Assembly (NCBI GenBank): GCA_002753135.1 | Contig: PDZV01000005.1 | Location: 1-63,547 of the forward strand | DNA: 63,547 bases | Reading direction: 5' to 3' | Source: Magnetococcales bacterium WMHbinv6 | GTDB taxonomy: Bacteria > Pseudomonadota > Magnetococcia > Magnetococcales > Magnetaquicoccaceae | Position numbers and translations under genes: made by a program | Shown: positions 50,631-54,575 of the stretch, one piece after another | Position numbering within the stretch: position 1 is the first letter of the stretch | Layout: each line of letters starts with the position of its first letter | The notes under the pieces: model-generated | What the model saw: only the letters and a program-made list of their open reading frames with translations | Told to the model about the DNA's origin: nothing | The model's database searches: none

Positions 50631-53600
50631 ATGTCATTTTTAAATATTTTCAAAAAAGGCAGTGAAGAAGAGAACAAACCGGTAGAACGGCAGGCCACCT
50701 TGCCCCATCCAGATCTGTTGCCCAATCACTATTATGCCTTGTCCAGCGCCTATACGCCGGTGGAGGTGGGTTCCCAGGGGGTTTCCTGTCACGTCGAGTA
50801 TCGCGGCCATGGGGAATATTATGTGACCACCCGCTCCAAAGGGCGGATCATGCTGCAAGAGAGTCTCAACGCCCGTGACCGGCGCAAGCTGTTTGTCAGC
50901 AACTTCGATTACAAGGGGCTGGTTGGTGTCCATCTGCATCCGGCGGGTATTGTCATGACCCTGGATCAGGAGAAAAACGAAAAGGGGGAGGTGCGTCCCA
51001 ATCAGCCACCAGCCACCATCCGCAGCGGTCCAGCCCCCCTCAACCTGGAAGCGTTGCTCAAAGAAAGAGTGGTCACCATCGATCTGGCCACGGTGAGCGA
51101 AAGCAGCCCGCTGTTGATTGCCAGCAACAACCGCATGATGCACATGATGATCAAGCCGGTTTCGGCGGAAAGCAGCAACTGGGGACTCTATTTGTCCAAT
51201 ACCAACGGCATTATTCGCCCCAATACGCAGCCCTCGGTGGTGTTGCAGCGGGAAAGCTCTCTGGTGGTGGATCGGCAATTGTTCATTCGACTGGCCGCCA
51301 ATCCAGAGGCCAGCATTATTGCCCGCTCCTGGAATGTGGAGACCCTCGATCCGATTTTGTTGCGTTTGTCGGTGGATGCGCAAGGCATGCTCACCCTGGA
51401 GGAGATGTTCACCACCCACGGTTTGAGCGTGGTGTTGGGTGATGGTGAAGTCTTTGCGTTGGGCTCGTTGGGTGATTCTCCTTCGCCCCAGCAGGAGCTG
51501 TTGCGCAAGCAGTATGCCGATACGTTGCGCAAGCTGCGGGATCGGACGCAAACCCATGTGGCAGCCCACGGACAGGAGGAGCGGTTTCAGGGGATACGCG
51601 ATCATCTGTTGGCCGATGTGGCCCAGGCGCTGCGCAAAGAGACCAGTAACGGTGTGGTGATGCTGGCCCTGGAGTTGGCAGTCAAGGAGGTGTTGGCCCC
51701 GCTCTACAGCGAAGCCATGGGCAAAGAGAATATTACCAGTGTCGATCATCAGACGGTGGCTTTGTTGAACGCCATCCTCAACGAATTGAGCGGCTGGATT
51801 CAGACCGACTCTTCGGTGAGTCTGTCGTCGTCGGCCATTGTCACGGTGATCGATGAAATTGCCGGCGAATTGCCGATGCCCGGCCTGGATGCGCTGATGA
51901 AACAGGAGCTGCCGCAAACCCAGTCGGAGTTTCTCGAAGAAGAGCAGATTCATTTCGACGATTTGTGCCGCAACGCCAAAACCTTTTTGGTCTCCTTTTT
52001 GACCACCAGCAGCGCCAGCAAGGATGTCTATCATCTGGCCAAACAGCTCGGCAAGGGGGATCCCTCCGCCGATCAGAATTCCGTGCGCAACGAACTCAAA
52101 CAGGCCGTGCAGCGGATGATGCGAGAAACGCTGTTGCAGACCTTGATCCGTCTGGTGATTCGTGGCCATTTGGCCCGGGTGGAGCAGGAAAAACGTCAAG
52201 CCCTGGGTATCGAGTTGCAAAAGGGCGATGGCAACAAGTTGATTGCCCGCAACCATCTGGATGACATTCTCAAACGCTACAACGAATATGCCCGTTTTAT
52301 CGCACCGGCTTTTTCCGAGCGGCTCAAAGGGTTGATCAATGCGGCGATCAAAGGGTTTCAGGATGGCACGGCCACCGAATCATCGGTGGCCATCAACTGC
52401 AACGGTTTTATCTCCTATCTGGCCTTGTTGCGCAACACTGGCGGCAATCTGGAAGGAGGGGCCGAGAAAACCGCCCCGGCGATGACCTGCCTGCATGCCA
52501 TTCCAGACGTGGTGCCGGATATTCATGTGGAGCAGCCAGACCGCAGTGTTGCCAAAGCCTTCGTGCGGGTGGTGCATCGGGAAGGGTTGTTGATGGAGGC
52601 CGATTTTGCCCCGAAAACGGTGGAAAAATTATTGCCGGACGGTGTGCCGGAAGTGTTGTGGAACGCCGGCAACGAGTTGGCCTTGCGCTATATGGAATAC
52701 AATTTGGGCAGCGGCAAGGGGGATGGGCAGCAGCTTAATCGGGTGGCGCAACGGTGGACCCGCACGCTGTTGTTGAAGCTGTTCAACCTGTTGCGTGGTG
52801 GACGTTCCTTGTCGCCACAGGCCGATTTTACCGGCATGCAGCCCTTTCTGGAAGAGACGACAGGGGTGGTCGAGATGCGCCCGGGTGAAGAGCCCGGCGA
52901 AGAGTTGCTGGACCTGCGCGGTCGCCCGGAGGGGATGCGGGAAGCCGCTCTGGATCTGAAAAAGGAGCTGCGACAGGTGCTGGTGGCCTTGCAGAAAGAG
53001 GGGGTGATCAAGCCGGAGAGTTTTCGCTTCAAACAGCGGATGCGCTCCTTTGCCATGTCCGGAGGAGGTGGTCAGGCGCTGGAGTTGCCTTTGTCGATTA
53101 CGGTCCGGCGTGGGGTGATCAGCCTGGAGGCAACCATCGACGAAAAGCCCTACAAAAAGCTGATTTCCCTCTCCGGTCAGCTGGCGGATGAGCAAAATTT
53201 GGCAGCAGAGGCGGAAGCTGAACGGCAGGCGGCCCAGGCCAAACAGGTTTCCCGGCAGGAACAGGTGCGGGAGCAGACGGAAAAACTCAGCCGCAAAGGC
53301 ATCGCCCAATCTCTGCGGACCATCGAATTTTTTAAAGATTTTTCCGAATACGAAAAGGATCGGGTGGCGGAGTTTGATGTCAGCTTTCAGGTGATTGCCC
53401 CGCAGGAGGTAGTGATTCGAGAAAACACCCGCGACACCGCCTTTTATATTTTGCTCAAGGGGCGGGTTGCGGCGGTCAAGGGTGATCTGCAGCGCGGCAA
53501 AGGCAAACAGCTGTTTGAATTACCCGCCGGGGAGATGCTCGGTGAACTGGCCTTTCTGGCAGGCACGCCGCGCACTTTGAATATTGTCGCCATGGAACGG

Positions 53601-54233
53601 GGGCTGTTGTTGCGGGTCGACAGCGAACTGCTGGGACGTCTGGGCAGCGACAGTCGGGAAAAATTCAAAGATCAGGTGATCAACAAACTGGTGCATCGAT
53701 TGGCCGATACCACCGACCGTTTGTTGAAAATGCCGACAGGGAACCGTGATCAGAGCAAGCTGATGATCAGGCAAGTCGATCATGCTGAACGGGGGGAACT
53801 CAAACAGTTGACCCGCGAAGAGACCATCGAAAAGATTGACCGGATTCCTTTCTTTGAAACCTTCTCGGTCTTTGAACGGCGACGGGTGACCGCTTTCAAC
53901 ACCTCCTTTTTGACCTATCCGGCGGGAACGGATGTCATTTATGAAGGGGATATTGATACCGCCTTCTATATCCTGATTGACGGGGCGGTGACAGTCTTTA
54001 AGGGAGAGAGTATGGTGGTGGAGTTGGGGCCGGGAGAATTTTTCGGCGACATGGCATTTCTGACCAGCCTGCCGCGCAGCACCGGCGTGCGCAGTAAGAG
54101 TGATATTCTGGTGATGAAAGTGGACCAAAGCCTGTTGCAACGGTTGGGTTCAGAAATACGCGAAAAAATCAAAGACCGCTTCATCCGCAAACTGTGCGAA
54201 CGGGTAATTCAAACCACCGGCATGGTGATGTAG
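50631..54233 (+). CDS. Giant protein with two C-terminal cyclic-nucleotide-binding domains, unknown N-terminal region
   Basis: 1200 residues, apparently soluble. The first 850 residues show no domain I recognise; they alternate beta-rich (about 30-300) and helical stretches. A charged coiled coil (about 855-895) precedes two cNMP-binding folds, about 900-1010 and 1070-1185. The first phosphate-binding cassette is GEMLGELAFLAGTPRT and keeps the Gly-Glu and Arg pair. The second is GEFFGDMAFLTSLPRS, where Asp replaces that Glu. No DNA-binding, kinase or transport domain follows, so this is not a CRP-type regulator. AAGGGG lies about 9 bases before the ATG. It stands alone, followed by a strong hairpin. 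Confidence 0.85.
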   Translation: MSFLNIFKKGSEEENKPVERQATLPHPDLLPNHYYALSSAYTPVEVGSQGVSCHVEYRGHGEYYVTTRSKGRIMLQESLNARDRRKLFVSNFDYKGLVGVHLHPAGIVMTLDQEKNEKGEVRPNQPPATIRSGPAPLNLEALLKERVVTIDLATVSESSPLLIASNNRMMHMMIKPVSAESSNWGLYLSNTNGIIRPNTQPSVVLQRESSLVVDRQLFIRLAANPEASIIARSWNVETLDPILLRLSVDAQGMLTLEEMFTTHGLSVVLGDGEVFALGSLGDSPSPQQELLRKQYADTLRKLRDRTQTHVAAHGQEERFQGIRDHLLADVAQALRKETSNGVVMLALELAVKEVLAPLYSEAMGKENITSVDHQTVALLNAILNELSGWIQTDSSVSLSSSAIVTVIDEIAGELPMPGLDALMKQELPQTQSEFLEEEQIHFDDLCRNAKTFLVSFLTTSSASKDVYHLAKQLGKGDPSADQNSVRNELKQAVQRMMRETLLQTLIRLVIRGHLARVEQEKRQALGIELQKGDGNKLIARNHLDDILKRYNEYARFIAPAFSERLKGLINAAIKGFQDGTATESSVAINCNGFISYLALLRNTGGNLEGGAEKTAPAMTCLHAIPDVVPDIHVEQPDRSVAKAFVRVVHREGLLMEADFAPKTVEKLLPDGVPEVLWNAGNELALRYMEYNLGSGKGDGQQLNRVAQRWTRTLLLKLFNLLRGGRSLSPQADFTGMQPFLEETTGVVEMRPGEEPGEELLDLRGRPEGMREAALDLKKELRQVLVALQKEGVIKPESFRFKQRMRSFAMSGGGGQALELPLSITVRRGVISLEATIDEKPYKKLISLSGQLADEQNLAAEAEAERQAAQAKQVSRQEQVREQTEKLSRKGIAQSLRTIEFFKDFSEYEKDRVAEFDVSFQVIAPQEVVIRENTRDTAFYILLKGRVAAVKGDLQRGKGKQLFELPAGEMLGELAFLAGTPRTLNIVAMERGLLLRVDSELLGRLGSDSREKFKDQVINKLVHRLADTTDRLLKMPTGNRDQSKLMIRQVDHAERGELKQLTREETIEKIDRIPFFETFSVFERRRVTAFNTSFLTYPAGTDVIYEGDIDTAFYILIDGAVTVFKGESMVVELGPGEFFGDMAFLTSLPRSTGVRSKSDILVMKVDQSLLQRLGSEIREKIKDRFIRKLCERVIQTTGMVM

Positions 54234-54499: not shown

Positions 54500-54575
54500 G
54501 GGGGTGTAGCTCAGTTGGGAGAGCGCCTGCTTTGCAAGCAGGAGGTCATCGGTTCGATCCCGTTCACCTCCACCA
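54500..54575 (+). tRNA. tRNA-Ala (anticodon TGC)
   Basis: A 76-base cloverleaf with encoded CCA. The acceptor stem GGGGGTG pairs with CACCTCC and contains the G3:U70 wobble pair that marks alanine tRNAs. The anticodon loop CTTTGCAAG sits in a perfect 5-bp stem, and the D loop (AGCTCAGTTGGGAGAGC) and T loop (GGTTCGATCC) are canonical. The stretch downstream is accessory, but I see no duplicated tRNA 3' end that would mark an attachment site. Confidence 0.97.

Follow-up and report, generated by a model that had tools for sequence, protein, structure and literature searches.

Cyclic-mononucleotide signalling in bacteria is usually told through CRP. The Xanthomonas protein XC_0249 is a cNMP-gated bacterial enzyme that joins a cNMP-binding domain (CNBD) to a GGDEF domain (PMC3770947). 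In eukaryotes, PKA regulatory subunits and cGMP-dependent kinase (PKG) carry two consecutive CNBDs with GE...PR-type cassettes. The trypanosome PKA, which is cAMP-independent (PMC6440977), is a precedent for ligands of another kind in CNBD proteins. We analysed a protein of Magnetococcales bacterium WMHbinv6, encoded in a window of 63,547 nucleotides (the whole stretch of DNA studied; coordinates are positions in it). Like PKG and the PKA regulatory subunits it carries a pair of CNBDs, and like XC_0249 it would be a bacterial effector of cyclic mononucleotides, with the attached module under CNBD control; XC_0249 differs in having a single N-terminal CNBD and a known output enzyme (PMC3770947).

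The open reading frame at 50631-54233 (forward strand) runs for 1200 codons from ATG to stop. It is a real gene and not a chance frame, as it has full-length homologues (56-71% identity within the genus, 26-38% across the order Magnetococcales) and a low dN/dS of ~0.14 against its L007 orthologue, with substitutions most frequent at third codon positions (substituted fractions 0.24/0.14/0.48 at positions 1/2/3). The whole protein is under purifying selection. The homologue with 71% identity (L032) lies on a contig of isolate YD0425bin7, of the same genus as the source genome; YD0425bin7 has been grouped with 'Ca. Magnetaquicoccus' UR-1 (PMC6783814). Pfam matched cNMP_binding (PF00027) in two stretches, at residues ~893-1008 and 1068-1172 (E 3.6e-29; 101 bits against a curated cut-off of 27.5), and no other Pfam family even at E<=10. 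This agrees with the first-pass annotation, which had claimed two CNBDs with cassettes of the forms GE...R and GD...R, here placed at residues 971-982 and 1139-1150. NCBIfam gave CNBD-type matches only, all below cut-off; TIGR03896 (bacteriocin-type transport-associated protein) scored 43.1 bits against a cut-off of 161.05. The gene and its parts are as follows.

50631..54233, + strand: whole gene, 1200-residue protein (open reading frame from ATG to stop, homologues and dN/dS)
50706..51500, + strand: beta-rich N-terminal part, residues 26-290, holding the best-conserved stretch (R84, G99, H101, H103-P104, W234-N235) (conservation; strands from low-confidence models)
51048..51503, + strand: beta-sandwich-like segment, residues 140-291 (weakly FHA-like in a low-confidence model; no support from profiles)
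51498..53000, + strand: conserved, predicted largely helical residues 290-790 (conservation, low-confidence model)
53013..53180, + strand: orphan module's predicted beta tail, residues 795-850 (alignment, low-confidence model)
53178..53306, + strand: variable linker, residues 850-892 (boundary where homologues exchange C-terminal parts)
53307..53750, + strand: cNMP-binding domain A and its C-terminal helices, residues 893-1040 (Pfam, alignment, CNBD tree)
53541..53576, + strand: phosphate-binding cassette A, GELAFLAGTPRT, residues 971-982 (translation, alignment)
53796..54221, + strand: cNMP-binding domain B and its C-terminal helix, residues 1056-1197 (Pfam, alignment, CNBD tree)
54045..54080, + strand: phosphate-binding cassette B, GDMAFLTSLPRS, residues 1139-1150 (translation, alignment)

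By sequence, the solved structures nearest to the CNBDs are from eukaryotic PKG (E 6e-20), followed by PKA regulatory subunits (E ~5e-15). The earlier claim that the protein does not resemble PKA regulatory subunits was therefore correct for its architecture as a whole but not for the CNBDs themselves. Unlike PKA regulatory subunits and PKG, the protein has no kinase domain and no recognisable dimerisation/docking domain; residues 1-850, modelled with low confidence only, gave no Pfam match to the latter. Translated residues 850-893, in the linker before domain A, were read directly and contain no copy of the inhibitor sequence of PKA regulatory subunits (pseudosubstrate R-R-x-S/A/G). The two pairs also differ in origin, the window pair having arisen by duplication within Magnetococcales. 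The earlier exclusion of CRP and channels was supported. No CRP/FNR helix-turn-helix family was found; the protein ends ~28 residues past the domain B match and reaches 36.6 bits with the CRP model, against a cut-off of 266. It is soluble by sequence, with no channel family, membrane segment or transmembrane pore segment found (top 19-residue Kyte-Doolittle mean 1.52).

A tree of 52 CNBDs was used to trace the pair; its long branches lie elsewhere and none touches the node joining A and B. The A domains form one clade (98/95) and the B domains another (98/87), and the two are sisters (96/92). Next to this pair (95/93) stand a free-standing CNBD of the source genome itself and the CNBDs of L138 and L139. 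This arrangement indicates that one CNBD was attached and then duplicated in place before the families diverged, its nearest kin among those compared being free-standing or single-CNBD proteins of the order. Free-standing Magnetococcales CNBD proteins (C31:15619-16071 in the source genome) have the CNBD subtype of the window protein, with its C-terminal REKxKD helix, and are 45-47% identical to domain B. They differ from the window protein in being sensor only, at ~150 residues. Five other proteins of the order (L135, L137, L140, L143 and L144) resemble the window protein in ending in a CNBD pair, but an FHA domain can be recognised in them. In the tree their CNBDs lie outside the window-pair clade, so their tandem arrangement is separate. 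The window protein is a defined case of sensor-module capture and duplication, and supplies a candidate new output domain.

Other CNBD proteins were seen along the way. L138:1336-2871 and L139:1756-3210 encode proteins of ~500 aa with a C-terminal CNBD, each preceded by a free-standing CNBD gene. In both, short R-G-x-I/L-P repeats form a long run, and the N-terminal part resembles a universal stress protein by eye, with no Pfam match. Two further Magnetococcales genes (L134:216-1796 and L136:1907-3520) join a Ser/Thr protein kinase domain to a CNBD of the window-protein subtype at the C-terminus, an architecture resembling that of a bacterial cyclic-nucleotide-dependent kinase. The source genome has about twenty CNBD matches; in three of its large proteins (L093, L095 and L100, on C40, C36 and C11) the CNBDs follow what resembles, by eye, a metallo-beta-lactamase-fold domain.

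We next consider the ligand sites. In the window protein both cassettes have the acidic residue and the arginine (R981 and R1149). Across the 20 homologues with tandem CNBDs, window protein included, site A keeps E and R in 13 (families f1, f13 and f14), while all seven f8 proteins have Q, H or N in place of the arginine. Site B keeps E or D with R in 18/20, Asp replacing Glu in 11/20, and both sites are kept in 13/20. Loss of the ligand-binding residues among homologues, which the first-pass annotation had named as evidence against its reading, thus gave a mixed picture: they are kept in three families and partly lost in f8. This erosion indicates that two-site binding is not essential everywhere. 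Two f8 proteins, L028 and L029, each the second paralogue of its genome (G037 and G041), show erosion at both cNMP sites, the site B acidic residue being Gly in the alignment; from sequence they are probably non-binding. The residue following the cassette arginine in the window protein is Thr in cassette A and Ser in cassette B. A hydroxyl residue at this position is common in cGMP-binding CNBDs but found in CRP too, so it says nothing on ligand preference. The proposed genome search for cyclases found six of class III in the source genome, and at least one is present in 48/48 Magnetococcales genomes. Cyclases also occur in genomes without the protein, which makes their co-occurrence uninformative.

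The module formed by residues 1-850 was found in 22/48 Magnetococcales genomes (8/17 genera); the single-contig genome of family f11 lacks it. Among ~350 genomes of the same phylum sampled outside the order, only G105 gave a match, on the strand opposite an argA-like gene, and this was taken as chance; collections of plasmid, phage and viral contigs held no homologue. On this sample of one phylum, these collections and a scan of species genomes that reaches close relatives only, the module has so far been found only in Magnetococcales, an order whose members mostly sense magnetic fields, and distant homologues in other phyla are possible. Not all copies carry the sensor pair. L023, of 854 aa, has nothing beyond the module. 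In L024, L025 and L030 a different beta-rich part takes the C-terminal place. In a tree of the N-terminal part, one branch (support 100/100) splits tandem-CNBD from other homologues. A single gain or loss would explain the C-terminal parts, its direction depending on the root. The f14 homologue L026/L031 (G030:C27) is divided between two open frames, one of 270 aa and one of 1317 aa, through a frameshift or an assembly error.

As the first-pass annotation had stated, no known output domain was detected: residues 1-850 gave no match in Pfam, NCBIfam, PADLOC or PDB sequences. Outside the CNBDs, domain scans of 15 homologues gave only scattered weak matches. A profile of the N-terminal part found nothing convincing among solved structures, the weak matches to ribosomal uL11 having E 0.017 or worse. 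DUF1631 (PF07793) was not matched anywhere in the genome at E<=1, no internal repeats were seen among the N-terminal segments compared, and our search for literature on the family found nothing. A structure model of the whole N-terminal part, made from the window sequence and L032 only, was unusable (pLDDT 35). Low-confidence models suggest that the part appears to run from beta (26-290) through helical (290-790) to beta (795-850).

We consider it probable that the protein is a stand-alone soluble cAMP/cGMP effector specific to Magnetococcales, with an output or scaffold module, specific to the order, under the control of the sensor pair at the C-terminus. The cAMP or cGMP made by the cell's class III cyclases would bind to one CNBD or to both, and the helices that follow each domain (motif REKxKD) would then move. 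That movement would release or alter the activity of the N-terminal module, the presumed output, or its binding to partners. The earlier proposal of a scaffold or enzyme under cyclic-nucleotide control, judged by sequence and by the six cyclases, thus remains the best reading. Between its two forms we lean towards a scaffold or interaction module, given the lack of any enzyme family match and the homologues with no sensor or with a different tail, which make the sensor pair look like an add-on regulator. That the module is instead an unrecognised enzyme gated by cyclic nucleotide, with catalysis as the output, is a tentative version of the same reading. About 48 N-terminal positions are invariant across 25 divergent homologue rows, many of them polar, and conserved residues such as R84, H101, W234-N235, E257, R323, E353, E518, R522 and H649 would suit an enzyme, of which XC_0249 is a known cNMP-gated example (PMC3770947). 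However, neither Pfam, NCBIfam and PDB sequences, nor the homologue scans, nor the N-terminal profile revealed the known enzyme domain that would have spoken against the first-pass reading, and some homologues dispense with the sensor. Equally tentative is the idea that the module is a new output domain, of new fold and activity, put under cyclic-nucleotide control through a captured and duplicated free-standing sensor.

A very doubtful alternative places a diverged FHA-like phosphopeptide-binding domain at residues ~147-270. The protein would then read phosphoproteins under cNMP gating, as a counterpart of the genuine FHA and tandem-CNBD proteins of Magnetococcales. When the model of residues 140-291 was structurally re-aligned (VIA-align), FHA domains made up most of the ten best rows, the best at Z 5.8 and rmsd 3.1 over 91 residues. 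The segment was folded alone from two sequences with low model confidence (pLDDT 65), and Z scores below 8 may reflect a common arrangement. Foldseek found nothing significant (best E 0.17), and there was no Pfam match to FHA (PF00498) in residues 140-291. In hhalign, the region gave a probability of 0.9% against 54 FHA sequences, inside the range of column-shuffled scores, compared with 98.7% for a true FHA positive control. It is unlikely, though less so, that the CNBDs have a chiefly structural role, or a ligand that is not a 3',5'-cyclic mononucleotide, in a protein acting as a constitutive scaffold. The lost site A arginine in f8 (7/7), the loss of the site B acidic residue in two proteins, the frequent Asp at site B and the trypanosome precedent (PMC6440977) fit this, but the cassettes are otherwise well kept and selection has preserved the whole protein. 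As far as the evidence goes, the Magnetococcales effector that we favour combines known sensors with an uncharacterised module in a new way and does not amount to a new signalling principle. The order has several cyclases in nearly every genome and one CNBD subtype joined to many outputs, the 850-residue module among them.

The first-pass annotation had noted that the protein stands beside a soluble hybrid kinase; a link between the two found no support. The kinase (HisKA-HATPase-REC-Hpt, with a sub-cut-off PAS match) is divergently oriented and is not a common neighbour. Across 21 loci compared there was no conserved neighbour or operon partner, and no synteny or conserved neighbour across families. 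A cyclase shares the contig with the module gene in a few genomes (e.g. G035, G041, G045), with no neighbour family common to the loci. Shortly 3' of the gene, the window contains a tRNA-Ala (TGC) at 54500-54575.
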